Below are positions 7,441 through 63,831 of a DNA stretch of 64,000 nt, piece by piece. The notes under the pieces were generated by a model. It saw nothing but the letters and a program-made list of their open reading frames with translations, did no database searches and was not told the origin of the DNA. The stretch covers positions 62,001 to 126,000 of the forward strand of contig NZ_JACHFD010000001.1 in NCBI RefSeq assembly GCF_014201715.1. Direction: 5' to 3'. Positions within the stretch are counted from its first letter, which is position 1, and each line of letters starts with the position of its first letter. The stretch comes from Haloferula luteola (GTDB taxonomy: Bacteria > Verrucomicrobiota > Verrucomicrobiia > Verrucomicrobiales > Akkermansiaceae). Position numbers and translations under genes: made by a program.

Positions 7441-8484
7441 ATGGACGCGATCATTCACCACCTCGAATCCGGCCAGGAGTTGAGCCGCCGCGAGATTGAT
7501 GTCGCAGCACGCCTGCTGCTCGATCCGGATGGCGACGAAGGCAAGAAGCTTCAATTGCTGGAAGCTCTCTCCAAAAAAGGAGAGAGCGCAGCGGAAATCG
7601 CGGGATTCGTGGAAGAGTTTCTCGAACATGCCGTCAATCCTCATGTAGGGCTGGCCGATATAGAGGGCCCGACAATCGATGTTTGCGGAACAGGCGGGGA
7701 CAAGCTCAACCTCTTCAATGTATCGACGACAACGATGTTTGTCGTGGCCGCGGCCGGAGGGGTGGTGGTAAAGCACGGCAATCGCGGAATCACTTCCAAG
7801 AGTGGTGGTGCGGATGTACTGGAAGCTCTGGGAATTCGTATCGATCTCGATCCCGAGGGTTTCCGCAGATGTTTGGAAAAGGCCGGGATCGGTTTCCTGT
7901 TCGCACCTTCCTATCACCCCGCTTTCAAGGCGGTGGTCGGAGTTCGCAAAAAACTCGCCGAAAGGGGAGTGCGGACGATTTTCAATTTGATCGGTCCGCT
8001 CCTTAATCCGGCCCGGCCGGATTGTCAGCTCGTCGGCGTGTTTGAGCGGGCTTGGTGCCCGGTTTTCGCGGAAATCCTCCAACGCTTGGGTCGCGAGAGT
8101 GCTTGGGCGGTGCATGGAACCACGGCCGATGGACGGTCCGTTGATGAAGTTAGCCTACTCGGTTCGACCCGCATTTGTAAGGCAGGGGCCTATCAGGACA
8201 TGGAAGACGAGGAGGTTCGTCCACGAGATTTCGGGCTCGTGCATGCAGAGCTGGCGGACCTGCAAGGTGGAGATGCTCCGGTTAATGCCGCGATTCTTGA
8301 ATCCATCCTCGCAGGCAAAGATACGGGATCGAAGGCCGATATGGTGCTTTTGAATGCAGGAACGGCCCTCGCATGCTGTGGGCTGGCCGATGATATTGGC
8401 GGCGGAATCGAACTCGCACGTGCCGTCATTCAAGATGGCAGCGCTCTGGATCGGTTGCGGGCGCTCCAGTCGGTCGCCCGCTAA
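7441..8484 (+). CDS. trpD: Anthranilate phosphoribosyltransferase
   Basis: 347 residues, normal length. The PRPP/Mg-binding glycine motif DVCGTGGDKLNLFNVST is near residue 80, followed by KHGNRGITSKSGGADVLEALG, which lines the anthranilate tunnel, and FNLIGPLLNPARP. TrpD joins anthranilate to PRPP in the second step of tryptophan synthesis in the cytosol. Other trp genes are not adjacent; a split trp pathway is common outside the enterobacteria. No SD is obvious before the ATG at 7441, so the start rests on the family's usual N-terminus. Confidence 0.95.
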   Translation: MDAIIHHLESGQELSRREIDVAARLLLDPDGDEGKKLQLLEALSKKGESAAEIAGFVEEFLEHAVNPHVGLADIEGPTIDVCGTGGDKLNLFNVSTTTMFVVAAAGGVVVKHGNRGITSKSGGADVLEALGIRIDLDPEGFRRCLEKAGIGFLFAPSYHPAFKAVVGVRKKLAERGVRTIFNLIGPLLNPARPDCQLVGVFERAWCPVFAEILQRLGRESAWAVHGTTADGRSVDEVSLLGSTRICKAGAYQDMEDEEVRPRDFGLVHAELADLQGGDAPVNAAILESILAGKDTGSKADMVLLNAGTALACCGLADDIGGGIELARAVIQDGSALDRLRALQSVAR

Positions 8485-50369: not shown

Positions 50370-50563
50370 GGAAAATTCTCTGCACCTGTCGGCTTCCTCG
50401 ATCAAAGTGGCCTGACCCATGGCCTGATGGGATGCTTTGCCGGAAGTGTCGGGGAAATCGTGGTGTTGCGAAGCCCTGGGAATTATCAGCGGCTCGGTCG
50501 CTTGTGCGCTCGGTAATGGCTGCTCGTGCTCGTATCTTGGTGGACAGAATGAAAAAAAGCTAA
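50366..50563 (+). CDS. Small Cys-containing phage protein
   Basis: 65 residues from a GTG overlapping the secretin stop by four bases. CTCRLP and CRKCRG provide a possible zinc site, and the C-terminal half is basic (LVRSVMAARARILVDRMKKS). It resembles a small nucleic-acid-binding or regulatory protein. Coupling to the secretin gene is the main evidence. Confidence 0.5.
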   Translation: MRKILCTCRLPRSKWPDPWPDGMLCRKCRGNRGVAKPWELSAARSLVRSVMAARARILVDRMKKS

Positions 50564-50675
50564 AAATCAATTGATTTGAATAACCTGAACTCAATGCCAC
50601 CCTTCGCACCGCAACGGCACAGAACGCCCTCACCCCCCTGATCTTTAGTTGCTTGTCACCAGAAACAAAATCAGC

Positions 50676-50813
50676 ATGAACTTTGACGTGGTTTCGATTT
50701 TTGATCCACAATGGCCCACCGTAAATTTACTGATTATTTTTATAGGAGTTGTCATTATTTCATATTGGATTGCGTCAGAAATTAGGCACTGGCGATCCCG
50801 AAGAAAGAAATGA
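50676..50813 (+). CDS. 45-residue membrane protein, phage element
   Basis: An open frame, MNFDVVSIFDPQWPTVNLLI and then a membrane helix (IIFIGVVIISYWIA) with a basic end (RHWRSRRKK). It is coat-like in topology, but lies after the secretin in AT-rich DNA. It could be a holin-like, immunity or second minor coat protein. There is no SD. Confidence 0.4.
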   Translation: MNFDVVSIFDPQWPTVNLLIIFIGVVIISYWIASEIRHWRSRRKK

Positions 50814-50973
50814 ATTGAAAATCAGATCGTTATGCGATTGGCATGATGAAAATTATTCAGAAATAGGGATTTTCCACACGCGTCTTCGCGTTATTTCTCA
50901 GAGAATTCGCGTAAATCGGGCGATTAATATTGCTCGGAAGTCGGGCGTTATATTTTATCCGGCCGCCTCCTAG
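50749..50973 (+). CDS. Possible small phage protein overlapping the 45-residue frame
   Basis: 74 residues. The part beyond the overlap (KIRSLCDWHDENYSEIGIFH, then RLRVISQRIRVNRAINIARK) has protein-like composition in AT-rich DNA and ends 43 bases before a terminator. Only the position and composition support it, and the start is unclear. Confidence 0.3.
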   Translation: MSLFHIGLRQKLGTGDPEERNELKIRSLCDWHDENYSEIGIFHTRLRVISQRIRVNRAINIARKSGVIFYPAAS

Positions 50974-51015
50974 CAGGCTACATACATCGTTCCCCCGAGC
51001 TGCATGTAAACCAGC

Positions 51016-51080
51016 GGCTCCTGCTCTCGACGCTCGAACACCCCCAAAGGTTCACTAGCAACGGGAGCAGGAGCCTTTTT
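51016..51080 (+). terminator. Long-stem terminator of the phage late operon
   Basis: Stem GGCTCCTGCTC (51016-51026) with GAGCAGGAGCC (51065-51075) and five T after it. The loop is 38 bases. It closes the transcript that carries the structural and assembly genes. Confidence 0.7.
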
Positions 51081-51246
51081 CGTCTTTTTGGCTTCTCATT
51101 GATGCCCAATGTGGTCTCCTGAAATCGCTTACAGTTTAAGGGAAGGCCACAACGATTATTTGTGACTTGCCAAGCTAAGATCTCCACCAACTTCACCAAA
51201 AAACCCTTCAAAATTGGCGAGTTGGTGGGGATCGATCTCTTCAAAT

Positions 51247-52026
51247 ATTTTACATGGCTGCGGGAGGCCGACTTGTCACTTCTTCGGAAGATAGGTGAAC
51301 TGAGTATTAGGCATTGAGAGCTTACGACTGCCCGCGTAGAAGGCGTTACCTCCCTAGTCCACCGATATTCGGGTACAGGAAATTGGTGACTAACCTGGGA
51401 TGGTGTGTGTAGGGGTGTGGCGAAAGAGACTTCGTCACACCCCGATCACGAAAGAAAAAATGCGAGGTCCCCTTCCAGGCCTCCCTCCACCAATGAATCC
51501 ACCCGAGCTACTTCAGGTCATAGGGATCTGATTTTTAAGCGTTTACCGCTAATTCGGAGGAGATGAAATCTTGTTCATCAACTTGATTTGCACGGTGAGC
51601 TTTTAAAATCACCCATGTTCAAAATCAGAAAACCTTGAACAATCGGCCCGTTATGGTCGATTGTTCAGACAATGCAGATTGCGAAGTGGAGCCGAGAGTC
51701 CCTGGGGGGGGATTCCGTCTCAAGCGCCAATGTTTGCGCCGCTGTAACTCTGCAGGACTCCACATGCATTGACGTCGGGGGACGTCAGACACTGTGGGCG
51801 GGCTCGGCGTCTCTTAGACGTCGGGCCCGTTAAATTTGCGGATTTCCCCCCAATTGAGGGGGTTGGCCTTTGTTGTTCGTTGGATGACAGTGATATCCAT
51901 GGGAGGCCAGTCGTCTCGACGTTGGTCTGCTTCGGCCGCTCAGGAGCGAAGCAGCCCCCCTAATCTTCGGGTGAGAAGTCCGGGGGCTCCCATCAGCCAA
52001 TCCCACTACGATAAGTTGCAGTTAAC
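51247..52026. other. Non-coding interval in the phage element, with a strong hairpin
   Basis: I see no gene I can support in these 780 bases. They contain a 13-base stem (51412-51424 with 51431-51443, one G-T pair) whose left arm begins with GGGGTGTGGCG, repeated at 43310. Poly-G/C tracts follow at 51706 and 51846. An intergenic region with hairpins after the late genes is where filamentous phages keep packaging and origin signals. Confidence 0.4.
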
Positions 52027-52359
52027 ATGAAATCTCTAGATCTTGATTGGGACCATGTATCGTCCTTTAATGTGATAGTAACAATAAGAAGTGGCCTTGG
52101 GAATCATTCCGTTGAATCGACTCACTTTTTTTCGGAAAAAGACGTGCTTCCTCTGAGAATAAAATGCTTAAATTCACGCTGCGAGGATGGCGGCTTCGAT
52201 CCTAAGGAACTAATTCAAGGAGCTCTAGTAGCTAACAATGGAAAGATTGACATCAATCAATCGATTGATTGCGGAGGGATAATTCAGATTCTCAGCAAGG
52301 AATCTAAGTCATGCGGTTGCAAGTGTATTGTTGTCGGAAGGATCGTCACCAAGGGGTGA
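52027..52359 (+). CDS. Hypothetical cargo protein, phage element
   Basis: 110 residues, AT-rich. The sequence has LDWDHVSSFNVIVTIRSGLG and a CxC-rich end (IQGALVANNGKIDIN; SCGCKCIVVGRIV), with cysteines at CLNSRC and CGCKC spaced as in a zinc-binding domain. There is no signal peptide. It does not resemble phage structural proteins, and its codon use differs from the core. Function unknown; it could be a moron gene. Confidence 0.5.
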   Translation: MKSLDLDWDHVSSFNVIVTIRSGLGNHSVESTHFFSEKDVLPLRIKCLNSRCEDGGFDPKELIQGALVANNGKIDINQSIDCGGIIQILSKESKSCGCKCIVVGRIVTKG

Positions 52360-52464
52360 GAGACCCCTTATATCCTGGTTAGTTCATTCGGGCGAAGCCT
52401 CGGATCAAGTGACTTTTGGGCCGTGAAACCAACGATCGGGGCTGGCCCATTCAAAGTGGGGGTT

Positions 52465-52562
52465 TGGGGGAGAGCATTTCCCCCAGCCGCCGGAGGCTGA
52501 ATGCTTGGGGGGTCTAGGGGGTTCTCCCCCATGCGGGGGAGTTTGAGGGGGCGGGCCCCCTC
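52465..52562. repeat. Three GC-rich hairpins in tandem
   Basis: TGGGGGA/TCCCCCA (52465-52471 with 52479-52485), CTCCCCC/GGGGGAG (52524-52530 with 52535-52541) and GAGGGGGC/GCCCCCTC (52545-52552 with 52555-52562). G runs lie between them. The cluster is not followed by T runs, so it does not look like terminators. Confidence 0.5.
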
Positions 52563-52605
52563 GAGGGTTTGCGGGCCCGATCTGGCGACCGGACCCGTAT
52601 TACGG

Positions 52606-52839
52606 TTAGAGTTGGAAGTGATGCACCTCCCCTTGGGCTTCGAACAAGTGCCCCTGCTCGATGGATTTGAGGACTTTCACTGCCCCAAACGCTCTAACGG
52701 GGAAAGCCCTGCAGGCGTCGACGACGGTGTAATCGGCCCAAAGATAGTGCTCATTTTCGACGACGGCTTTCAGTTCGATGGCTGAGGCGTCGGTGTAGAT
52801 GTTGGCGAGGGCGGCTTGAATTCGGTCTACGAGGTTCAT
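52606..52839 (-). CDS. Small hypothetical protein, minus strand of phage element
   Basis: 77 residues from the ATG at 52839 (MNLVDRIQAALANIYTDASA), the only clear minus-strand gene in the element. The sequence is coherent (IELKAVVENEHYLWADYTVV, then ACRAFPVRAFGAVKVLKSIE) and GC-rich. Position opposite to the main operon, next to the right-end regulator, would suit a repressor or immunity protein, but there is no HTH. Upstream 389 bases to 53228 hold no other gene. Confidence 0.5.
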   Translation of the reverse strand: MNLVDRIQAALANIYTDASAIELKAVVENEHYLWADYTVVDACRAFPVRAFGAVKVLKSIEQGHLFEAQGEVHHFQL

Positions 52840-53228
52840 AGTATTAAACGGTGCGAATGCGCACGCTACGCGCGCGCAATTCTTGGGAGCCGATCCGCCC
52901 AGGTGGGGTCCCAGCGCAGTCACCGAGTGCAACGAGGGGAACCCCCGTTCGAGCATGGCACGCAGGTGCTTAGGGACTCGTTCCCTTAGCACGCTGCCGC
53001 CACGCGGAGATAAGCGGGGTTGACGGCGCGGGGTGCCTGGGGCGGGGTCCGGTCTTCCGGACGGGGTGCGGAGCTGCGGAGGGTCGGCGACGGTTCCTCA
53101 ATGCCCCCTTCCCTGCCCTCTTTTTATCCATCCCTTGCTCAATAGACTTGCTAACAAGTAAACCTAACTTAATATTTTCCCGCCTTCCTGAAGGCGTTAA
53201 ATATCAAGTAAAATTTGGGTTTTTGACG
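52840..53228. other. Non-coding interval between divergent small genes, operator at its right end
   Basis: No supportable frame. The region is GC-rich up to 53110, then turns AT-rich and carries the palindrome at 53147 and the sequence conserved in the second element. It probably contains the promoters of both flanking genes. Confidence 0.4.
53147..53158. promoter_or_regulatory. Conserved palindromic operator candidate, first copy
   Basis: CTTGCTAACAAG, an inverted repeat, followed by TAAAC; the same 12 bases and similar flanks occur at 55219-55230 before the related gene. It is 70 bases upstream of the right-end HTH gene in both copies. Confidence 0.5.
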
Positions 53229-53534
53229 ATGGGCACAGTTTCACGAAAAGAGGCGCTCCGGGTGAGAGCCTGGGAGAAGTTTTGCGAGAAGGAATGTGGG
53301 GTCTACCCACCCAAGCTTGCAGCGGCGGAATTGGGCATGACCACTCAGGGGGTCCGATCTGCCTCAGATGCCGGTTGGATCAGTTACTTCCTGGTGGGAA
53401 GAGAACGCTTTTATTCCCGCCGGGACGTGTCACGCTACCGGCACAATCCGAGGCGGCCGGGGTGCCCAAATACCCTCCCTCCCCCTCATCTTGGGACCGC
53501 AAATAAGACGCGGGAGATGATTGATTCACTGTAA
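53229..53534 (+). CDS. Small HTH-like DNA-binding protein at the right end of the phage element
   Basis: 101 residues from the ATG at 53229. Residues 20-65 (CGVYPPKLAAAELGMTTQGV, then WISYFLVGRERFYSRRDVSR) have the pattern of an excisionase/MerR-like winged helix: helix, turn, recognition helix, then an aromatic wing. Three bases after its stop begins the dif-like site. The gene and its upstream region are duplicated at 55219-55618. Placement at the attachment site suggests control of Xer recombination or repression of the phage; this is inference. Confidence 0.6.
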   Translation: MGTVSRKEALRVRAWEKFCEKECGVYPPKLAAAELGMTTQGVRSASDAGWISYFLVGRERFYSRRDVSRYRHNPRRPGCPNTLPPPHLGTANKTREMIDSL

Positions 53535-53536
53535 GT

Positions 53537-53564
53537 CGTTGATATAGTGTATGTAATGCGGAAT
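53537..53564 (+). other. dif-like Xer site, right end of the inovirus element
   Basis: Left arm CGTTGATATAG (53537-53547), core TGTATG (53548-53553) and right arm TAATGCGGAAT (53554-53564). Core and right arm equal those at 42430-42446. The left arm and the six bases before it (GTAAGT) equal those at 55602-55618, so these belong to the elements and not to the host. Confidence 0.7.
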
Positions 53565-53718
53565 CAACTCAAGGGACTGTAGAAAAGAATCGAAACAGCT
53601 TGGGGAATCAGGTGCGAAGGTGCATTATTGGGTGTTGAGACTCATTTCAGGGTGAACCACATACTCTAGAGATTCGTTTTGGCGATGTTCCGCAATTCTA
53701 AGATCTCTAATCACTGAA

Positions 53719-54210
53719 ATGAAATCACATTATCTTCACTTTCTCCTAATATCCCTAATTTCAAGTCAATTGTTGGCGTGCGCATTTACACCAAGTGAAC
53801 TTCACTACAACGCACCCAAAGACATTGTTCAATTTGGAGTTTTTCAAAAGGATGCATTTATTCCAGACGAAAAGCCACTCTCACAAAACATATCTCACGA
53901 TTTAAGGGAGATTGCTCTGAGTCTGCCGATCTGGGATGGCGGATGGATAAATTCAGAGCAATGGATATACAAAAACTCTAGTAGTGGCATTGACTCTCAA
54001 GAATGGGCAATCCCGGCGGATGGCGCCCAAATTTCATATAATTTGAGGCGGCTTCATTCTTCTGAAGATGGAGCGATACGAGTTGAATTACGACGCCCCT
54101 CTTCAAAATTATTCACTCCTAGCGGAGGTAGATATCTACCATGGACTGCTATCATTAGACGAACCAGCAATGGATGGATTATCGAATCCAACTCAAAGAC
54201 AATTATTTAG
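53719..54210 (+). CDS. Putative lipoprotein, satellite element
   Basis: 163 residues. The signal sequence has a lipobox, LISSQLLACAF, with cysteine at 21. The mature part is polar and beta-rich (FGVFQKDAFIPDEKPLSQNI; LPIWDGGWINSEQWIYKNSS). There is no known domain. It is AT-rich with codon use unlike the backbone, a sign of transfer. A surface lipoprotein on a phage element could block superinfection, as known for other prophages; here that is only inference. Confidence 0.6.
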   Translation: MKSHYLHFLLISLISSQLLACAFTPSELHYNAPKDIVQFGVFQKDAFIPDEKPLSQNISHDLREIALSLPIWDGGWINSEQWIYKNSSSGIDSQEWAIPADGAQISYNLRRLHSSEDGAIRVELRRPSSKLFTPSGGRYLPWTAIIRRTSNGWIIESNSKTII

Positions 54211-54676
54211 AGCTGACTTAATGACCCAATCTCCGTCATCGCCTTTTCTTCCTTTGATCTCTCATTCGGTCATATTGCCTTCTCCATTTCGGCTTAAACA
54301 AATCTCTAAGGCATCGTTTGATCTTCTGGGAGAACTTGAAAAAATTCATATGGGACTTTAAGTTTTTGGTTTTCTTGGTGTTGGAATGCCTCCGGAATCC
54401 CAGCAAACTCAATGAGATGCCCAAAAACTTTTGCTTCCTCGAATAGGTATTGGCTTAATCTTAAGGGGTGCGTCTACCAGTTTCACCCGTTCGAAGGCCA
54501 TTCCCTTCGCTTAGCCATGGCAATGGTGTTTGCATTTCTTGGGGAATGTCGAACACCAATTGCATGTTTTTGATTTCTCAAAAATGAATGAAATCTTCAA
54601 TCCCCCTAAGCTGTTGATGGTAGGCATGTTAAATTTCACATCTCGACATTATTGTTTGGAGGCTTACCTTCGAACG
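54211..54676. other. Non-coding interval, AT-rich
   Basis: I see no gene. Short frames here have no SD and no coherent composition. It probably holds the promoter for the XRE-type gene that follows. Confidence 0.4.
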
Positions 54677-55141
54677 ATGGCATCAACAGGAAGCAGGCTC
54701 AGCAAAGCTCGGGAATCTCAAGGCCTCACGGTTTTTCAGGCCTCCTCAAAAACAGGGCTCTCCGCTCAACAAATCGAGGATTTTGAGAGCGATACGATTC
54801 ACCCAACTCCGCTTGAAATTCGAGGGATTTTAGCTGGGCTCGGATACTCAAGGGATGAGGCTGTTCAGTTTCTGAAGGGGGCGACTGGGACCACAATTGG
54901 GGAATTCCAAAGACGGAAGGCGAGTTTACCCCCTGCCCCACCATTTGTGACTTTCTCAAAGGGAAGAATATCACTTCATGACCGGGGTTCGAAACGAAAT
55001 GACTACTGTATAGAAGGAACCCAGGTCGATTCAGCCGACAAAATCCTATCTCTTATTGATCATTTGTCTCGAAAGGAATGGATCACCAAAAAGCATCTAA
55101 GAGATTTTGTTCGATTCTCTTCCCAACTTCTTGACGACTGA
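54677..55141 (+). CDS. XRE-family (lambda-repressor-type HTH) regulator, satellite element
   Basis: 154 residues from the ATG at 54677. The N-terminal HTH is clear: GSRLSKARESQGLTVFQASS, KTGLSAQQIEDFESD, with the QxxxSxxTGLSxxxIxxFE pattern of XRE proteins. The C-terminal half (SADKILSLIDHLSRKEWITK) is helical and may dimerise or sense a signal. It is the likely repressor of the element. The longer start at 54530 adds unlikely sequence. Confidence 0.72.
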   Translation: MASTGSRLSKARESQGLTVFQASSKTGLSAQQIEDFESDTIHPTPLEIRGILAGLGYSRDEAVQFLKGATGTTIGEFQRRKASLPPAPPFVTFSKGRISLHDRGSKRNDYCIEGTQVDSADKILSLIDHLSRKEWITKKHLRDFVRFSSQLLDD

Positions 55142-55218
55142 TCCTAAGAACAGCGGGACAAACTCCAGGCCTCTGCTTTGTTGCCAGCCATGAATTTGCG
55201 TGAACCTCCGCTTACCAT

Positions 55219-55230
55219 CTTGCTAACAAG
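55219..55230. promoter_or_regulatory. Conserved palindromic operator candidate, second copy
   Basis: CTTGCTAACAAG, identical to 53147-53158, with the same distance to the downstream frame. Conservation although the gene behind it has decayed suggests recent or constrained homology. Confidence 0.45.
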
Positions 55231-55294
55231 TAAACTAAACTTAAGGAGTTCCCGCTTTCCCTGACGCATTAAATATCAATTAAAATTTGAGTTT

Positions 55295-55618
55295 TTGACG
55301 ATAGTCACGGTTTCACGGAAAGAGGTGCTTGAGGTGAAAGCTTTGGAGAAGTTTCTTGAGCAGGTATGCGGGGTGTACCCACCCAAGCTTGCTTCGGCTG
55401 AATTGGGTGTGACCACTCAGGTGTCCGATTTGCCTCAGACGCCGGTTGGATCAGTGACTTCCTTATTGGAAGAGATCGCTTTTATTCCCCCCCGAGACGT
55501 GTCACGCTACCCGCACAATCCGAGGCTGCTGAGGTCTTCAGATCTCTTTCCTCCCCTCCATCTCGGTACCAAAATCAGACGCGGAAGATGCTTGAAACGC
55601 TGTAAGTCGTTGATATAG
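55295..55618 (+). pseudogene. Decayed copy of the right-end HTH gene
   Basis: Homologous to the 101-residue gene at 53229. The ATG of that copy is ATA here, so only a TTG start remains. A one-base loss after the TTQ codons shifts the middle of the protein (VSDLPQTPVGSV...) and a one-base gain before RDVSRY restores the frame. The HTH N-terminus (CGVYPPKLASAELGVTTQ) is kept. The stop again lies at the dif-like site. Confidence 0.65.
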
Positions 55619-55635
55619 TGTATGTAATGCGGAGT
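55608..55635 (+). other. dif-like Xer site, right end of satellite element
   Basis: Left arm CGTTGATATAG (55608-55618), core TGTATG (55619-55624), right arm TAATGCGGAGT (55625-55635), one base different from the other two. It marks the return to host DNA. Confidence 0.65.
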
Positions 55636-56085
55636 CGTCTTTTCCCAAGAACGTCTCCTAGCCGTTCAGCTGTTTCATTGTCGGTGGCAACCCGCTGCCC
55701 TTCCGTGCCGCGGAGATGACACCGTGACGAGGACCCGTCTCTCACCGGATCCGAATGATGTTCCAGATAGCGAGTGCCACCACTCCGACATTCGTCGGTA
55801 TCTGCTGGATCCCCGTCAAGGGAGGGAGATGGAGAGCATCCCCCAGAGAAATCATGCACCAAGATTTCCAACCACTGAGCCTTCCAACCGTGGGCGGAAA
55901 CGGCGGACATCGCCGAACACCCCTTCCCGGAGTCTTCTGGGCAACGCAGAGAGCCGTTGAAGACGATGGGATTCTCTTGACGGACTTCAGACGTTCCAAT
56001 GAGCGAGGCTTCTGATTCCTGATCCATCGGCTCCCCCTTCAGCGGCCAGAATGATTTGGCCGTGTGGACAAATGGGTCACGCAGC
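55636..56085. other. Interval without a supportable gene
   Basis: Several frames are open on both strands but none has coherent protein composition, start signal or family pattern. It is flanked by the satellite and the IS5 remnant and is probably degraded coding or insertion debris. Confidence 0.4.
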
Positions 56086-56090
56086 CAATC

Positions 56091-56770
56091 CATTGAGGCA
56101 GCGAGGAATACGCAGGAAAGCGTCGATCTCGGCGATCCGGTCGTAGCGAGTGCCGATTCGACGGAAGCACTTGATACTCCCGAAGAAGTTCTCAACCACG
56201 TAGCGGCGTTTGCCGACATCCTTCACTTACAAGTGCTGAGACTCCGGTTCTTGCGGCAGGGAATGTTGGCAACGCCTTCCAATGCACAGGATCGATGGTC
56301 GGATCGTGTCGCTGTCGTAGCCCATGTCGGCCATTACCACGAGTCCGGCCATTTCCCCGAGTACTTCAATGGCGCTGCTCCAAGTCCGACTCGCTGCTTG
56401 GCACAAGCTTGAGGTTGATCAGCTTGCCTCTGCTTTTGGTAACCGCGTTGAGCCTGGAGTTTCGTCCGCCTTTGGTCTTGCCGAAGCCTTGTTGCTCCGG
56501 GGTTCTGGAGAAGTGGCTAGCGCCCTGATGGACCTACGCGTAGGTGGCGTCGATGATCTTCAACTCATCGACCGCTGCCGACGCACGTGCCGTTTCCTCG
56601 ACCATCCGTTTGAACAAGCCGCGTTTGGTCCATCGGTTGTGGAAGCGGTAGACGCTCTTCCTTTGGCGATCCTTCGCGGGGAGTGGGTTCCACTGGCAAC
56701 CCGATACGAGGATCCACCCGATGTCGCCAAACGTTTTGAAAAGATCGGCCAGAAGGCGGCCTTCAATCTA
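56091..56770 (-). pseudogene. IS5-family transposase, multiply frameshifted remnant
   Basis: Reading the minus strand across frames gives an N-terminal part (ILVSGCQWNPLP, SVYRFHNRWTKRGLFKRM), DELKIIDATY for the first catalytic Asp region, and the C-terminal DDE signature KRRYVVENFFGSIKCFRRI with Y-x2-(x)-E-x6-K spacing. At least two frameshifts and stops lie between them, and about 150 bases are missing in the middle. Terminal inverted repeats were not found, so the ends are approximate. It is inactive. Confidence 0.8.
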
Positions 56771-56916
56771 AATGCAGGTCAGCACGACCTATCGTTAGGG
56801 CAATCTTTAACTTGCTCGAGAATCACGTCCGATATCTCTGTCACATAATCACTCAAAGCACCAATGGAGCCCAGAAATCCTTTGATCTCTCAAGCACTTC
56901 AATTTGTCCACACGGA

Positions 56917-57006
56917 CTTAGCGTGACGACTGAAACCATCCGCTGGCGACTGAAGCAGATCTATGGCAAACTGGATGTTCACGGTCGCATTGAGGCCGCT
57001 CTGTGA
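56917..57006 (+). pseudogene. LuxR-type HTH fragment
   Basis: The last 30 residues of a LuxR/FixJ-family regulator: LSVTTETIRWRLKQIYGKLD then VHGRIEAAL, the turn and recognition helix with typical end. Upstream sequence to 56812 is open but does not read as the rest of the domain. The gene was probably cut by the IS remnant next to it. The remaining 288 bases to 57293 have no gene. Confidence 0.6.
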
Positions 57007-57293
57007 AGTCCATCAGCCTGAAAGAAAATACAGGAGCCTGGATTACGTCTTTCCTTATGAGGGCATCACCATGAAGGCACGTTCGAAGCAAACTACCCGC
57101 TTGGGGGGGGCGCTTACGTCTGACGCCACTGGACTTGCAGGCAGTTTTCATGTTCGACTCCGACTCCTCGGCAAGCCTCTCCTTGCTCCGATGTTACAGC
57201 AGCTCTCGTGTCGTAGCAGGCCGATTCACACATGCTCGAAGGGGCCCTGCCCGTTCCTCCTCGTAATTCCAGCTGAATTTCAAATCCAAATCC

Positions 57294-58679
57294 ATGATTT
57301 ATTCTTTGGCAAGAACCGGCCTAGTGGCCTTGGCATCCATGCTCATTTTCACCTCGATGAGTGCCCATGGACAAGGCCCCGAAGGTCATGGATACCTAGA
57401 CATTCTCGATGAAAATCTCGTGGAGGGTGCCAACTGGAGCGTCGATCCCAATGGTCGCAAGGAGCTGCGTGAAGGGGGATTCAATAGCAGCACTTATCTA
57501 TACATGACCGGTCAGGACAGCCCGATTTCGATCCGCGGACTCAACATTCCAATCCGCGAAAACCCGGGACCCGGCGAATTCCGCTTCCTTTCCTTCGCCT
57601 GGCGGAAATGGGGAAGCGGTCCCATCGCCATCAAATTCGAACTCAGCAACCCAGAGAACCAGGAAGGCAGCTTGGGAGCAAAGGATGACTACACACTCTA
57701 CGCTGGCGAGCGGCCTCCCAAGAAGGGGAAAGGGCTTCAATTGACCGATCAACTCGGCGGCGGCTGGCAGGACATGCCGCTCGATCTCTGGCAGACGTTC
57801 GGCGAGTTCACCGTCACCGGACTCACCTTCATCGTCGAGTCCCGCGATGCTGGCTTCGATGCCGTGGCTTTCGCCGCAACCCTGGACGGATTCTCCTCCT
57901 CCGCCCCGCTGGTCCAGCCGAAGATCGCGGATTCCGTGGAAACCGGAGAGTCGGCTCCCAGCAGCAACTCCGAAGCCGTGAGGGAGGACGGTACGACTGA
58001 CGAGGTGAAGATCGACTGGGCGGGCCAGATCAAAGCCGGCGGCATCTGGATGTATCCGCTCTATGTTTGCGCGATTGCCGCGATGGTCATCTCCGTCCAG
58101 CGCCTCCTGACGATCCGGGAGTCTCGCCTTGCTCCGCCCGCCCTTTGCCAGGCTCTTGGCCACGGAGCGGCGAAGGGCAACTTCGAGTCTGTCATCAAAG
58201 CCTGCGATGCAAATCCATCCACCTTGGCCAACGTCGTCCGTTTTATTCTCGAACACCCCCACGCCGGCATCGATGTCGTCAATCAGACTGCCGGCGACAT
58301 CGCTTCACGCGATATTCGAGGTCACCTTGCACGGATCTATCCGCTGTCGTTGATTTCGTCCATTTCCCCTCTACTCGGTCTGCTGGGCACGATTATCGGG
58401 ATGGTCGAGGCATTCGGCATCGTCGCGCTTTACGGCGATGAGGGTGGCGCAAGCATCCTGTCGGATTCGATTTCCAAGGCCCTGATCACCACCGCTGCGG
58501 GCCTCATTGTGGCGATCCCGTGCATCGCGGTCTACTTCACCCTGAAAAACCGCATCATGACGTTCGCCACGCTCATCGAAGTCGAAGTCGAGCAACTCAT
58601 CACGCACCTCTACTTGCGTCCTGGCTCGAACGCCGGTTCCGGTGTGATGGCCAACGAAACCCACCTCGGAAATAGCTGA
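57294..58679 (+). CDS. MotA/TolQ/ExbB-family proton channel protein with N-terminal periplasmic domain
   Basis: 461 residues. A signal sequence (GLVALASMLIFTSMSAHG) leads to about 220 residues that resemble a beta-sandwich domain (GEFRFLSFAWRKWGSGPIAI, DLWQTFGEFTVTGLTFIVES). The ExbB core follows: first helix MYPLYVCAIAAMVISVQRL, then LISSISPLLGLLGTIIGMVE and ALITTAAGLIVAIPCIAVYF, the family's signature helices. ExbB complexes use the proton gradient to energise envelope work. Long periplasmic extensions on ExbB are common in this phylum and in planctomycetes. It starts an operon with two exbD genes. Confidence 0.85.
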   Translation: MIYSLARTGLVALASMLIFTSMSAHGQGPEGHGYLDILDENLVEGANWSVDPNGRKELREGGFNSSTYLYMTGQDSPISIRGLNIPIRENPGPGEFRFLSFAWRKWGSGPIAIKFELSNPENQEGSLGAKDDYTLYAGERPPKKGKGLQLTDQLGGGWQDMPLDLWQTFGEFTVTGLTFIVESRDAGFDAVAFAATLDGFSSSAPLVQPKIADSVETGESAPSSNSEAVREDGTTDEVKIDWAGQIKAGGIWMYPLYVCAIAAMVISVQRLLTIRESRLAPPALCQALGHGAAKGNFESVIKACDANPSTLANVVRFILEHPHAGIDVVNQTAGDIASRDIRGHLARIYPLSLISSISPLLGLLGTIIGMVEAFGIVALYGDEGGASILSDSISKALITTAAGLIVAIPCIAVYFTLKNRIMTFATLIEVEVEQLITHLYLRPGSNAGSGVMANETHLGNS

Positions 58680-58687
58680 CCTACGTT

Positions 58688-59158
58688 ATGCGAATCGACT
58701 TGGAAGAGGACAACGAGATCGGCGTCGACATGGCACCGCTCATCGACTGCGTGTTCCTGCTGCTGATCTTTTTCCTCGTGACCACGATGATGAAGAAGTG
58801 GGAAACCCAGATTCCGCTAACTCTGCCCGAGAGCACCTCAAGTCTTTCGACGAGCAAGACCAACGAGAGTTCTGAAGTGATCGCTTTGGGCATCGACAAG
58901 ACGCTCTATACCGTCGCCGGGCGCAACACTTACACGGGCGAGACGACCTACAAGCCGATCGACGACCTTGAGCGTCATCTCTCGGACCTCAAGGCAGCCC
59001 GCGGCAGCGATATCCCACTGGAAATCGCTGCCGACCGAAGCATCCCCGTCAAGCGGGTGATCGAGATCTTCGACATCTGCCAGCTCAGCGGCTTCAAGCA
59101 GACCCGGGTACGACTTGGCAGTCGACCGAACATGGAACCGGAGGTGGAAGCCCCGTGA
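58688..59158 (+). CDS. ExbD/TolR-family protein, first copy
   Basis: 156 residues. A cytosolic N-terminus, then a membrane helix with the conserved Asp: MAPLIDCVFLLLIFFLVTT (the Asp of PLIDCVF is the proton-linked residue). The periplasmic part (about 50-150) has the EIAADRSIPVKRVIEIFDIC segment of the ExbD/TolR domain. It pairs with the upstream ExbB. It starts nine bases after the exbB stop, and its own stop overlaps the next GTG by four bases. Confidence 0.9.
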   Translation: MRIDLEEDNEIGVDMAPLIDCVFLLLIFFLVTTMMKKWETQIPLTLPESTSSLSTSKTNESSEVIALGIDKTLYTVAGRNTYTGETTYKPIDDLERHLSDLKAARGSDIPLEIAADRSIPVKRVIEIFDICQLSGFKQTRVRLGSRPNMEPEVEAP

Positions 59159-59577
59159 AGATCAATCTCCATGACAACGAGCAGCCCGAGGTGTCGATGT
59201 CGCCGCTCATCGACTGTGTCTTCCTGCTGCTGATCTTCTTCCTAGTCGCCAGCATGGCAAAGGTGAAGAACAAGGACATTTCGGTGGATCTCCCCGAGTC
59301 CGAAGCCGCGATCCAGCTCCGTCCCCACGACAACCAGGTGGTCATCGGCATCGACCCGGACAGCCAACTCTACTGGGAAGGCTCACCCTGCACGACGAAC
59401 TTCCTGCTCGAGCAACTTCGCGACCTCTGCATTGAGGACCCGGAGCGACAGATCCGCGTCGACATGGATAAAGAGGCTCCGTTCGGCCGCTTTGTTGAAG
59501 TGATGGACGCTTGCCAGTTCTACGACTTGAAAAACGTGGGAATCCGCACCTTCGATGAGAGCTACAATCGAGACTGA
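59155..59577 (+). CDS. ExbD/TolR-family protein, second copy
   Basis: 140 residues from a GTG overlapping the first exbD. The helix MSPLIDCVFLLLIFFLVAS again carries the Asp. The periplasmic domain (DKEAPFGRFVEVMDACQFYD) is ExbD-like but only distantly similar to the first. Two ExbD paralogues with one ExbB suggest a mixed dimer in the channel. Its end overlaps the following gene by 23 bases. Confidence 0.88.
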   Translation: MKINLHDNEQPEVSMSPLIDCVFLLLIFFLVASMAKVKNKDISVDLPESEAAIQLRPHDNQVVIGIDPDSQLYWEGSPCTTNFLLEQLRDLCIEDPERQIRVDMDKEAPFGRFVEVMDACQFYDLKNVGIRTFDESYNRD

Positions 59578-61060
59578 CCGGCGGGCAAAGCTCGTGTCTT
59601 GGTCAATCGCGGCAGTCGTCGCGATTGTCGGTGCACTCGTGATCGTGCTGACGCCCAAGCCAGACAACAGCAAGGTGCGCCTACCCGAGCTGCAGGTGCC
59701 CAAGCTTCAAAAGCCGGACAACTCCAAGAAGAACAAGAAACCGCTGCCCGAGGAACTTGTGGAGGCGCGTCTCGAATCGTCCGAGATGATTGTCAGAAAA
59801 GAACTCCGCAAGCGGCTCGATCTCTTTGAGGAAATCAACCGGGAGGTAGCCTCCGAGCTGGTAAGCCATCTCGAAGCCGTCGCGAGCCGCCCGCTCCACG
59901 AGGGAATCACGGCTGATCCCAATGACGTTTCGTCGGCCCGTGAGATCATCGATTCGCGACCCCCGACTCTGGGCGACGGCCCCACTGTGGAGGATTTCTA
60001 CAACCAACTGGCGGCCTATGAGGATCGCATCCTTAACAGCCATCTGGCCAATCTTGCCGCTGCCAAGGCACTTAAGGAAGGAACCTCGTTCCCGGGTGTC
60101 CTCGAATCGATGCAGCAAATCGCCACCCGCATGCCGGACTACGGGTCGCTGGTGGATGAGGTGAAGAAACAGCATGGGATCGATGGCAAATGGTTGCCTC
60201 CCAAAGGCCACCGAAGCACCGACGACATCAACCGTTACCGTGAGCTTCTCGGCCAGACCTCCCGACAATCCGGGCTTGCCGAAAGCCGCTTGCTCGGGCT
60301 CGTCAGCAAAGTGGGTCGCAAGCCACCACCGCCAGTCCAGGCAAGGAGTAAGGGCCCGAACGGTGACGGCGACGGCGGAATGAAGGTCGAGAGCGCCGAG
60401 ATCAAGAAGGCGCTCTACAACCTCCACGAACCGAAATTCGAGAGTGAGGAACTGGTCGCCGCCCAGGCGCTTCCCGGCCGCCGCTTCTCCCGCAACTCCG
60501 AGCGCCGCGGATGGCTCTACGTCAACACTTGGTACATGATCGGCCCCTGGGACTCCCGCGGACGCAATGATTTCTCCCTGAGCCACCCCCCCGAACAGGG
60601 TGTGGATCTCGATGCCGTTTACCACGACGGCCAGGTCGGCCCTGGAGTGGCCGAGACCGACTCCCACTGGCTCAACGTCGTGGGTGACGAAGTCGAACTT
60701 GATGGCACCCTGCGCTGGAAGTTCATGCAGAGCGAGGCGATGCACAATGTGATGCCGGTCACCACCGACCGCTCGACCTGCTACGCGTACACCGAACTCT
60801 ATTTCGACGAAGCAGAAACCATGCTGGTGGCCATCGGAACCGATGACAGCGGCAAACTGTGGATCAACGGTCGCGAGATTTGGAACGACGCTGGCGCGAG
60901 CTGGTATCACATCGACGAGCACCTTGAGCCGATCGCTTTCCTGCAAGGCTGGAACCGGGTCCTCATTCGAATCGACAACAACGGTGGCTCCGCCAGTGGC
61001 TTCAGTTTCCTAATCTGCCCGCCCGATGCCCCGGTTCGCGACGGCGCTAGGGCCCGCTAG
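59555..61060 (+). CDS. Membrane-anchored partner protein with coiled coil and carbohydrate-binding-like C-terminus
   Basis: 501 residues. One N-terminal membrane helix (about 15-33, WSIAAVVAIVGALVIVLT) is followed by a Pro/Lys-rich stretch (VPKLQKPDNSKKNKKPLPEE) like the rigid spacer of TonB. A coiled coil (about 60-230) follows. The C-terminal 200 residues (WYMIGPWDSRGRNDFSL; MLVAIGTDDSGKLWINGREI, then GWNRVLIRIDNNGGSASGFS) resemble a PA14/GH2-type sugar-binding sandwich. In place of TonB, it could transmit ExbBD energy to a surface polymer. No TonB C-terminal domain is present. Confidence 0.7.
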   Translation: MRATIETDRRAKLVSWSIAAVVAIVGALVIVLTPKPDNSKVRLPELQVPKLQKPDNSKKNKKPLPEELVEARLESSEMIVRKELRKRLDLFEEINREVASELVSHLEAVASRPLHEGITADPNDVSSAREIIDSRPPTLGDGPTVEDFYNQLAAYEDRILNSHLANLAAAKALKEGTSFPGVLESMQQIATRMPDYGSLVDEVKKQHGIDGKWLPPKGHRSTDDINRYRELLGQTSRQSGLAESRLLGLVSKVGRKPPPPVQARSKGPNGDGDGGMKVESAEIKKALYNLHEPKFESEELVAAQALPGRRFSRNSERRGWLYVNTWYMIGPWDSRGRNDFSLSHPPEQGVDLDAVYHDGQVGPGVAETDSHWLNVVGDEVELDGTLRWKFMQSEAMHNVMPVTTDRSTCYAYTELYFDEAETMLVAIGTDDSGKLWINGREIWNDAGASWYHIDEHLEPIAFLQGWNRVLIRIDNNGGSASGFSFLICPPDAPVRDGARAR

Positions 61061-61135
61061 AGCCTGACACAGCTTGCAGCCGCCCAACCCGCTTTTCGCA
61101 CCACGACTCCCTAAATCTCCTTTAAGCCAAAACCC

Positions 61136-61687
61136 ATGACCCAACACCTTATTTTGGCGCTCGCTCTGGCTTCATTGGCTTCAGCCAAGAACTTCGACTG
61201 GGAGGAAGCCGACGTCCTCCGCGTCCATACGGAAGCACCCCGGGCCACCACCATGGCCTTCCCTGACAAAGACTCCGCGCAGACCCTGCTACGACTGGAG
61301 TCCACCTGGTGCCACATGCTCAACGGATCCTGGAAGTTCCACCACGTCGGCAACCCTGCCAACAACCCGCATGGATTCGAGATGCCCGGTTTCGACGACT
61401 CGACGTGGGATGGAATTCCCGGTCCGTCGAACTGGCAGCTCCATGGGTATGGCATCCCATCTCCCTCGATACCCACATCACCTATCGCCAAGATTGCCGC
61501 GAACTTCCGGGGCGTCGGTGACAAGGGCGCGAGCTGCGCCACTATCCGCTCGGATGCGTTCGACGCTCTTTGGGAGGCCATGCGGCGTGGCAACCCGTTG
61601 GCCCATCCCGAATGTGTCGACGCTTTCGACATTCACTCCTGCCGCATGGTCGAAGGGATGGTCAATTACCCCCTGCTCTCTGAATGA
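61136..61687 (+). pseudogene. Truncated GH2 beta-galactosidase N-terminus fused to an unrelated C-terminus
   Basis: The first 115 residues carry a signal peptide (LILALALASLASAK) and the GH2 sugar-binding start: CHMLNGSWKFHHVG, FDDSTWDGIPGPSNWQLHGY. Just after GYGIP a different frame reads PISLDTHITY, the expected continuation, so a frameshift is present. The remaining 55 residues (ATIRSDAFDALWEAMRRGNP, DAFDIHSCRMVEGMVNYPLL) belong to another protein end that I cannot identify. The catalytic domain of the glycosidase is gone. It is a deletion scar, overlapping the start of the next frame. Confidence 0.65.
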
Positions 61688-61713
61688 CAAACTCTCGCTT
61701 ATACCTTCCGACG

Positions 61714-63831
61714 ATGCGTGCTCGTCACCACTCGGTTGCTGCACTTCTACTGGCGGCCCTGACGACGGGCGAGGTTCGAGCGGAAACGAAGCCACAAGTC
61801 GTGATCCTCCGGGGTGATGCTCCCAGCAAACTTTTCGAAGGCATCGGCATGGTCAACGGTGGCGGGGCAACCTCGGTCCTGCTCAAGGACTACCCGGAGC
61901 CCCAGCGCAGCCAAATCCTCGACATGGTTTACAGGCCGAAGTTCGGCGCCTCGGTGAGCGCGCTGATGGTCGAGATTCCCGGCGACGGCAACTCGACCCA
62001 AGGGTCGATGCCCAGCCACATGCATACCCGCGACGACCTCGACTACACCCGCGGATACACTTGGTGGATCCTTCGCGAGGTCAAACAACGCAACCCGCAA
62101 ATCACCCTTGATGGCGCAGCGTGGAGCGCGCCCGGGTGGATCGGCAACGGTGAGTTTTGGTCGCAGGACGCCGCCGATTACTACGTCCAATGGCTTGAAG
62201 GTCTGCGTGACGTGCACGGCATCGAGCTCGATGCCATCGGTTGCCGCAACGAAAAGGGCGTGAGCTACGAGTTCGCGAAGAAGCTGAGGGCAACTCTCGA
62301 TGCCAAAGGATTCGACAAGGTACGACTGCACGCCTTCGACAACTGGCCCGACAACAAGTTCGACTTCGTGAACGACATGCTAAAGGACGAGGATTTGCGC
62401 GATGCGATCAACATCCTCGGCGCTCACGTTCTGTTCGCCAACAAGCACGCCTCCGAGGAAGTGCAACGGACGGCGGCGAAAATGAACAAGCCAATCTGGA
62501 ACACCGAGGACCACGTTTACCTGAAAGGCTTCGATTGCGCGATCACGCTGGTGAAATGCTTCAACGAGAATTTCATCCGCAGTGGTGCCACCCGCATCGT
62601 GAACTGGTACGACATCGGCGGGGTGTATCCGATCGAGCCCTACTCCGAAGATCCGCCGGTGATCCTCGCGCACTCGCCATGGAGTGGACACTACGAGGTG
62701 CGCGAAGCGCTGTGGGGCTACGCTCACTACGGCCAGTTCACCGAGGCCGGCTGGGATTACCTCAAGGACTCCTGTGGCGACCTCCACGGCGGCGGCACTT
62801 TCGTGACGCTGAAGTCCCCGCAAAAGGACTACAGCGTGATTCTCGAAACCAAGGATGCCGAACGACCACAGCAGCTCCGCTTCGAGGTCGGAGGCGGCTT
62901 GTCCGGAAAAGAGCTGTGCGTCTGGCGAAGCAATGAGGCGGACCAGTTCGTCCAACAGGAATCCATCAAACCGAAAGGCGGCGAGTTCACGCTTACCCTC
63001 GAGCCGGATTCCATCTACTCGCTGTCCACCACCACCGGCCAGCAGAAGGGCGGCTTTGACGATATTCCGGCCGCCAAATCCTTCCCCTTCCCCTACTACG
63101 AAACCTTCGAAAGTTACGAATCGCCCGAGGCTCACGGCGGGCTGCCGCGCTACACGGCGGACATATCCGGCGCTTTTGAGATCACCGACCGCCCCGGCGG
63201 GAGCGGAAAATGCATGCGCCAGGCGGCGCCGATTCCCACCCTCTCGTGGGCCCCGGATTGGCAGCCCTACACGATCATCGGGGACGACAAGTGGACCGAC
63301 TACGAGGTGTCCGCCGACGTCCGACTGGACCCCGGTGATTCCGCTGCGGTGATGGGCCGCGTGAACCACGTGGGCACTGGCTGGGGTTTCATTCCGAAAG
63401 GGTATTTCCTGGAACTTGGTGCCGACGGCCAGTGCCGCCTCGTCGTGATCCGTGGCAAAACGGACAAGAAAACGCTTGTCGGCGATGCCGAGCAGCAGGC
63501 CGCCATCGCTGCTGCGAAGGACGACAGCGAAGGGGGCGAAAAGGAACTCGGAAAAGCCACGGTCCCGGGTGTTCAGCCCGGCGGATGGCACCAACTCATG
63601 CTGCGCTTCGAGGATTCCACCATCACCGCCCTGGTCGATGGCAAACCCGTGATCAGCGCCACCGATGACCTCTATGAGCACGGCATGGCAGGTCTGCTGG
63701 CCGGTGCCCGGAAAAAAACCCTAAGCATGCCGTATTTCGACAACCTGCAGATTAAGGCAGTCGGCACTCCCACGCCGGATCCATCAACAGCCCTGCCCGG
63801 CCAGTCGCCGATCTACGATATTTCCCGTTAG
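61714..63831 (+). CDS. Galactosylceramidase (GH59) homologue
   Basis: 705 residues from the ATG at 61714, which starts a good signal peptide (MRARHHSVAALLLAALTTGE); an ATG at 61684 is possible. It closely follows animal GALC through the chain: GIGMVNGGGATSVLLKDYPE, RSQILDMVYRPKFGASV, PSHMHTRDDLDYTRGYTWW. The acid/base glutamate is in GCRNEKGVS and the nucleophile in IWNTEDHVYL. YSEDPPVILAHSPWSGHYEV and the C-terminal lectin-like domain (IIGDDKWTDYEVSADVRLDP) are also kept. GH59 removes galactose from galactosylceramide and related substrates, or similar beta-galactosides. It is probably periplasmic or secreted. Confidence 0.92.
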   Translation: MRARHHSVAALLLAALTTGEVRAETKPQVVILRGDAPSKLFEGIGMVNGGGATSVLLKDYPEPQRSQILDMVYRPKFGASVSALMVEIPGDGNSTQGSMPSHMHTRDDLDYTRGYTWWILREVKQRNPQITLDGAAWSAPGWIGNGEFWSQDAADYYVQWLEGLRDVHGIELDAIGCRNEKGVSYEFAKKLRATLDAKGFDKVRLHAFDNWPDNKFDFVNDMLKDEDLRDAINILGAHVLFANKHASEEVQRTAAKMNKPIWNTEDHVYLKGFDCAITLVKCFNENFIRSGATRIVNWYDIGGVYPIEPYSEDPPVILAHSPWSGHYEVREALWGYAHYGQFTEAGWDYLKDSCGDLHGGGTFVTLKSPQKDYSVILETKDAERPQQLRFEVGGGLSGKELCVWRSNEADQFVQQESIKPKGGEFTLTLEPDSIYSLSTTTGQQKGGFDDIPAAKSFPFPYYETFESYESPEAHGGLPRYTADISGAFEITDRPGGSGKCMRQAAPIPTLSWAPDWQPYTIIGDDKWTDYEVSADVRLDPGDSAAVMGRVNHVGTGWGFIPKGYFLELGADGQCRLVVIRGKTDKKTLVGDAEQQAAIAAAKDDSEGGEKELGKATVPGVQPGGWHQLMLRFEDSTITALVDGKPVISATDDLYEHGMAGLLAGARKKTLSMPYFDNLQIKAVGTPTPDPSTALPGQSPIYDISR

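Follow-up and report, generated by a model that had tools for sequence, protein, structure and literature searches.

A putative glycan-handling proton motor of the ExbB/ExbD family with a predicted jelly-roll transducer in Haloferula luteola

Introduction

The described arms that take the force of ExbB/TolQ-type motors across the periplasm are TonB, TolA and, since 2025, vWA proteins. The motor itself can also be extended, as in TtpC-like and N-extended ExbB proteins, in which ExbB is combined with an extra periplasmic domain. Reportedly, in work by Davey et al. in 2023, the mucin-internalisation genes of Akkermansia represent a case of verrucomicrobial glycan handling that needs a periplasmic complex. 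According to Williams-Jones et al. 2025 (PMC12204202), the vWA force transducers of Planctomycetes-Verrucomicrobia-Chlamydiae (PVC) bacteria and Bacteroidetes are anchored by a transmembrane (TM) segment and encoded beside a TolQ-type gene and two tolR-type genes that differ from each other. Here, we describe four same-strand genes at positions 57294-61060 of a 64,000-nucleotide stretch of the Haloferula luteola genome (the window; G000:C1:62001-126000 in a 4.9-Mb draft), which encode an ExbB, two different ExbDs (ExbD1 and ExbD2) and a TM anchor protein (Table 1). G and L numbers are our genome and locus labels, G000 being the window's own genome.

We hypothesize that these proteins form a glycan-handling proton motor in a broad sense, that is, a 5:2-type motor with a non-TonB transducer acting on glycans or glycan-bearing parts of the envelope, and we give this proposal about an even chance of being right. 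ExbB would be the wheel and the two ExbDs the axle, and the anchor, which has one membrane helix at its N-terminus and reaches far into the periplasm with its arm, would act as force transducer in place of TonB or TolA. The periplasmic heads, namely the jelly-roll tip of the anchor and one jelly roll per ExbB resembling a carbohydrate-binding module (CBM), would take hold of a glycan, or of an envelope component bearing one, either imported fragments of plant-type polysaccharides or a glycan of the cell's own wall or outer membrane. Proton flow would then move or release the gripped ligand, no TonB-dependent receptor being needed. While the motor is well supported, we infer its ligand, force transduction by the anchor, glycan binding by the heads and the glycan concerned.

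A motor of the ExbB/ExbD family

An earlier note on this DNA had recognised an ExbB with a large periplasmic domain, two different ExbDs and a TM anchor with a Pro/Lys spacer, and all four genes are present. It had called them overlapping, which holds for two of the three junctions (4 bp between ExbD1 and ExbD2, 23 bp between ExbD2 and the anchor) and not for ExbB and ExbD1, which are 8 bp apart; in most of the related loci with two ExbDs, the counterparts of the 23-bp overlap measure 20-44 bp. The arrangement is not a chance one, since the identical gene order recurs in other genomes. All PF01618 and PF02472 matches of ExbB, ExbD1 and ExbD2 exceed the gathering cut-offs. In ExbB, about 215 residues, comprising a signal peptide and a periplasmic domain, precede the core, which can be aligned with TolQ and ExbB chains of solved structure. 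Of the solved chains TolQ (8odt) is the closest, and NCBIfam also ranks the protein closer to TolQ than to ExbB (TIGR02796, E 1.7e-15 vs 4.4e-9).

In the alignment with solved chains, T366 and T400 of the window ExbB are the positional equivalents of TolQ Thr145 and Thr178. The PLID aspartate (D20, equivalent to ExbD Asp25) is present in ExbD1 as well as in ExbD2. These three residues are called essential in PMC12905483. Across the window and the related loci, the pore-threonine pattern is missed in three of 32 ExbBs, at the first threonine only, and the axle-aspartate pattern in two of 55 ExbDs, probably through over-long starts of the open reading frames (ORFs). ExbD1 has no solved relative at E 0.01 in a structure-database search, though it is a PF02472 member. 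Membership of ExbB, ExbD1 and ExbD2 in the ExbB/ExbD (5:2) family of proton motors is thus well supported by sequence, and the proton-driven machine proposed in the earlier note is borne out by the axle aspartate and both pore threonines. The ExbB wheel is presumably pentameric, the wheel and axle roles resting on homology and the conserved key residues, and ExbD1 and ExbD2 may form one hetero-pair.

Predicted carbohydrate-binding-type folds in the anchor and ExbB

The anchor belongs to no Pfam or NCBIfam family, its sole match being a spurious one to Nnf1 (E 0.096). TonB_C (PF03544) gave no match at E 1, and no TolA family was found by Pfam. The anchor is not TonB, because it has no TonB_C and its own genome holds separate matches elsewhere (two to TonB_C and nine to Plug); a partner other than TonB in TonB's place had been foreseen in the earlier note. 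Among 21 anchor members there are zero Pfam matches to VWA, and PA14 and GH2-N profiles have no Pfam match in the window anchor or in the 21 members. The profile of the anchor C-terminal domain (C-domain) matches no PDB sequence even at E 10, and where the anchor profile hit 'Bagel' beta-propeller designs in the PDB (30-residue overlap), this was put down to chance. Sequence similarity of the C-domain to the neighbouring GH2 remnant was considered and rejected (E 11).

A structural model of the anchor from 21 sequences (mean predicted local distance difference test, pLDDT, 75; predicted template modelling score, pTM, 0.45) places a TM helix at residues 9-32, a disordered Pro/Lys linker at 36-55, helices at 66-250, Gly-rich disorder at 252-291 and a beta-sandwich at about 298-488. 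The earlier note's coiled coil corresponds to a helical region, for which the model shows no single long coiled coil. Against solved structures, the whole model retrieved PA14 carbohydrate-binding domains (6xac) and glycosidase chains with Foldseek, and the top matches of residues 292-494 (VIA) were the GH2 N-domains of beta-glucuronidases and LacZ (Z 10.9, 139 residues, 3.2 A). The tip is therefore predicted to be a GH2-N/PA14-like jelly roll, a carbohydrate-binding-type fold that agrees with the sugar-binding-like C-terminus suggested earlier. D430 and D431 are invariant across the 21 sequences of alignment A3, which we take to be reminiscent of the Asp-Asp site of PA14, and no more than that.

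The TM helices of the window anchor and of the anchors in L041-L060 lack SxxxH, the tested part of the TonB/TolA SHLS motif, which is found in six distant anchors (L061, L063, L064, L067, L070 and L074) and, by eye, also in the own-genome paralogue and in the TM proteins of split anchors. Hence, the module type to which the window's copy belongs (the window type) may have an altered docking site or a different coupling to the motor.

A second, CBM-like jelly roll is predicted in ExbB. Residues 27-214 were modelled with a mean pLDDT of 81, and the top structural matches of this head are CBM8 (7t7y, Z 12.3, 140 aa, 3.2 A), followed by a glucuronyl C5-epimerase and CBM29 (Z 10-11). A PDB sequence match of the domain to TMEM147 was judged to be chance. 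One copy of the head domain was found in each of G000, G154 and G427, and in G425 one copy plus a weak second in another ORF; it was not found in G013 or G443, whose ExbBs (L061 and L059) are shorter.

Relation to TonB-dependent receptors

The module may work without a TonB receptor plug, since G434, G154, G157 and G163, four genomes of Lentisphaeria type (drafts, 92-94% complete where told), all hold the window type and have zero Plug matches. G434 has no TonB_C match either, and Plug domains are present in other host genomes of the module. Resting on absence in four draft genomes, this evidence is strong but not final. It bears on the idea that the module is an auxiliary energiser of TonB-dependent or SusCD-type glycan uptake, in which case the anchor would be a diverged TonB in contact with a receptor or a surface lipoprotein. 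Such a helper would fit the topology and gene layout, which are like those of Ton operons, as well as the SusCD-type genes about 3.4 kb downstream in L054 and the glycan-degradation genes near other copies. However, with no TonB_C in the anchor, no Plug match in the four Lentisphaeria genomes and ordinary TonB retained by the hosts, we regard it as improbable.

Distribution and transfer between phyla

The anchor C-domain profile led to 39 loci in named genomes. As a survey of co-occurrence, which the earlier note had suggested, this gave ExbD2 beside the anchor domain in 34 of the 39 loci and the full four-gene set in 19, the four-gene modules lying on one strand and mostly overlapping. Three of the five loci without ExbD2 start at or near a contig end (L062, L066 and L079), and the other two are mere fragments, of 94 aa (L076) and 69 aa (L078). 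Such 69-94-aa C-domain fragments recur in one Planctomycetota metagenome-assembled genome (MAG; GH22), at L076, L078 and L060 9658-9936. A two-ExbD subtype comprises L041-L061 (L053 and L055 being cut by contig ends), the own-genome paralogue L021 and L023; a one-ExbD subtype comprises L063-L077. L068, L069, L071 and L075 encode the anchor as two proteins, first one with the TM part and then a secreted-looking one with the C-domain, a split form that ties the C-domain to the motor.

More widely, 106 of 387 genomes of the phylum match the anchor C-domain profile at 1e-6, many in other architectures, and the domain has no match in 15 genomes of a genus presumed to be Akkermansia. At 1e-10 the profile matches 36 of 395 Bacteroidota genomes, and since the score is strong only in the centre genome the window type is sporadic. 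The window type comprises 17 loci (L041-L057): one Akkermansiaceae MAG has it, as do Bacteroides, Paraprevotella, Sunxiuqinia and Sphingobacterium, and the other loci belong to Lentisphaeria or rumen bacteria.

Several variants deserve mention. The second module of the window's own genome (L021 6730-10892, G000:C10) encodes a 275-aa ExbB, two ExbDs and an 810-aa anchor and adjoins MCE/MlaD-type lipid-transport genes. The anchor gene of L023 (G039, a single-contig genome) contains an in-frame TGA at 8020-8022, beyond which coding continues in frame to a normal end. A Laminin_G_3-type insert is present in one anchor of the 21 scanned, probably the long one of L061. Related bacteria also have proteins, often of about 400 aa, that contain this type of C-domain without adjoining ExbB/ExbD matches (L028-L039).

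A tree of 21 concatenated modules, built with a program warning about long branches, unites the 15 window-type rows in one clade (100/100), inside which the window and L041 are paired. The C-domains of the 14 other window-type loci in the tree are 63-76% identical to the window's, versus 41% for the own-genome paralogue. A clade of all Verrucomicrobiota (window, L041, L061, L023 and own paralogue) is rejected by the approximately unbiased (AU) test (p-AU 9e-12); with the paralogue included, this rejection shows only that the two own-genome copies are not each other's nearest kin. A single Bacteroidota clade is not rejected (p 0.12). Because the C-domain is so similar across Akkermansiaceae, Lentisphaeria and Bacteroidota, the simplest reading is that the window-type module has been transferred between these phyla.

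Neighbouring genes and alternative functions

A flank scan of 30 of 132 ORFs, picked by eye, revealed glycoside hydrolase (GH) genes beside several copies. In L046 (B. finegoldii), genes for GH88, DUF2264 and GH28 directly follow the anchor, and then a gene resembling the GH35 gene that is second in L043. GH43 precedes the module in L047, and GH88-DUF2264 and GH43 follow it; M60 precedes it in both L048 and L049, with GH28 and GH43, respectively, following. In L057 GH43 lies on either side, with a galactokinase-type gene further on, and in L041 a GH16 gene is found about 7 kb on. The distance to the downstream GH gene on the same strand is 26 bp in L057 and 208 bp in L046. With expectations drawn from measured genome-wide counts, and leaving out L055 (on a 3.2-kb contig) as well as L044 and L045, which nearly duplicate L043, seven GH43/GH28 genes at five of eight Bacteroidota loci compare with 0.94 genes (P 5.5e-5) and 0.88 loci (P 5e-4) expected. 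As a glycan link this enrichment is suggestive only. A galactolipid or galactosylceramide link, as put forward in the earlier note, was dropped: among the loci read, GH59 adjoins the module in the window only.

A bolder form of the glycan-handling proposal, which we put forward tentatively and think unlikely to hold in full, is a receptor-independent glycan machine. Polysaccharide would be drawn across the envelope, or away from it, by a lectin-like transducer together with as many as five CBM-like heads on the motor ring. The module would have moved among Verrucomicrobiota, Lentisphaeria and Bacteroidota of the gut as an accessory for handling glycans of pectin or galactan type.

A number of observations weigh against a glycan-handling motor of either kind. 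The TM helix of the window type is without SxxxH, so that coupling of the anchor to the motor is putative, and marginal TonB_C matches occur in G154, G157 and G163 (23.7-26.5 bits; cut-off 24.6). A common fold alone shows no function for either jelly roll, sugar binding being at most what such a fold suggests, and the top Foldseek match of the ExbB head is a ciliary doublet-microtubule protein (6u42_3W, E 9e-6) and not a CBM. The GH43/GH28 families were picked post hoc from the flanks of GH-rich genomes, and even placement was assumed though such genes cluster. The sole scanned flank gene from Lentisphaeria (L050) encodes a TPR protein and no glycosidase, the next gene in L055 is not that of a carbohydrate-active enzyme (CAZyme) and resembles, by eye, an aspartate-semialdehyde-dehydrogenase-like gene of L049, and several other flanks are likewise without a glycosidase. 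The glycan link of the earlier note is thus supported in part, by the enrichment near Bacteroidota copies, and finds no echo in these flanks.

The ciliary match would suit heads that bind protein partners, such as a surface appendage or a secretion machine, with vWA transducers or GldLM as parallels. PMC12204202 suggests that vWA transducers serve adhesion or motility, which points the same way. Nevertheless, no conserved partner gene was noticed beside the four in the flanks examined, and with the GH enrichment also speaking against protein ligands we consider them very unlikely.

The varying neighbours and the Lentisphaeria flank gene without a CAZyme fit a role in envelope stability like that of Tol-Pal, in which the heads would grip the cell's own peptidoglycan, an outer-membrane glycan or an outer-membrane protein, the motor would hold the envelope together and nearby glycosidases would be incidental. 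The closeness of ExbB to TolQ, both by NCBIfam models and among solved chains, and the MCE/MlaD-type neighbours of the own-genome paralogue are consistent with such a role. A housekeeping system would, however, not be expected to be as sporadic as this module, strong in one of 395 Bacteroidota genomes, and the transfer across phyla and the GH enrichment in Bacteroidota also argue against it; we regard envelope stability as a possible but rather doubtful explanation.

Should the combination of a conserved arm tipped by a sugar-binding-type domain and a motor bearing a CBM-like domain be confirmed, it would add a further kind of arm to those described and make directly testable what else such motors pull on. 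Cultured Bacteroides and Paraprevotella species hold copies of the module, so that clean deletions and tests on defined glycans are feasible.

Organization of the window

In the window, the anchor gene is followed 75 bp on, on the same strand, by a GH2 remnant and then by a GH59 gene, which is counted here as a neighbour of the motor system. The remnant keeps only the N-terminal ~85 residues and is probably an operon gene that has undergone an internal deletion. Upstream of the module, at about 50370-57290, coding is sparse with few long ORFs and a GC content of 0.51, versus 0.59 in the operon. Just downstream of the window, L040 12996-16653 shows weak matches to the pseudopilin-like Verru_Chthon cassette proteins A and C, and ORFs resembling these are also found close to anchor-domain genes in L024 and L026. 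A promoter and terminator scan gave no signal exceeding shuffles, and the module had zero matches in plasmid and phage collections.

Table 1. Features of the module and its downstream neighbours in the window
Feature	Coordinates	Strand	Details
ExbB	57294..58679	+	461 aa; PF01618 E 9.3e-20 at 341-428; signal peptide at N-terminus and predicted CBM-like periplasmic domain (about aa 27-214)
Predicted CBM-like jelly-roll domain of ExbB (modelled stretch)	57372..57935	+	alignment A5 (14 orthologues), model, fold matches
ExbD1, axle-type	58688..59158	+	PF02472 E 4.9e-21; PLID Asp at residue 20
ExbD2, second and different axle-type	59155..59577	+	PF02472 E 5.1e-31; PLID Asp at residue 20; aligned to solved ExbD
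Anchor, putative force transducer	59555..61060	+	501 aa; model; no TonB_C; conserved in 21-sequence alignment A3
Predicted GH2-N/PA14-like domain of anchor C-terminus	60422..61039	+	Foldseek PA14 6xac E 1.6e-4; GH2 N-domain Z 10.9
LacZ-type GH2 remnant	61136..61687	+	183 aa; NCBIfam NF052611 E 5.8e-15 at 24-108 of 1007-position model
GH59 (galactocerebrosidase family) glycosidase, neighbour gene	61684..63831	+	PF02057 E 2.1e-88

Comparison with described systems

A search of the open literature, which excludes most subscription papers, found no account of a carbohydrate-binding transducer in an ExbB/ExbD system. With TonB-ExbB-ExbD the module shares an ExbB/ExbD motor and an arm with one N-terminal TM helix and a Pro/Lys linker that is encoded beside the motor genes, but the anchor has neither TonB_C nor SxxxH and the module occurs in genomes without a Plug match. 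TolQRA of the Tol-Pal system is similar in that the motor is nearest to TolQ and the arm partly helical, whereas the anchor contains no TolA family and is followed at this locus, where the search was not genome-wide, by the GH2 remnant and GH59 instead of tolB and pal. The predicted fold of the anchor tip is like that of GH2 N-terminal sugar-binding and PA14 carbohydrate-binding domains; unlike these, the tip has no Pfam or PDB sequence match and sits on a motor arm. Unlike in TtpC-like ExbBs, the extra domain of the window ExbB is predicted to be CBM-like.

The earlier note knew of no described system with this layout, which is nearly right, the nearest class found being the vWA force transducers of PMC12204202. 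No TPR gene was seen upstream of the module in the window, in contrast to vWA transducer loci, and the window type has a predicted jelly-roll tip, an ExbB with a CBM-like domain and no SHLS histidine; the terms jelly, PA14, galactose-binding, beta-sandwich and lectin are absent from the text of the paper. While the tip differs, layout and topology agree, both systems having the same order of motor genes and a TM-anchored transducer in which a disordered linker leads to a globular tip that is not that of TonB.

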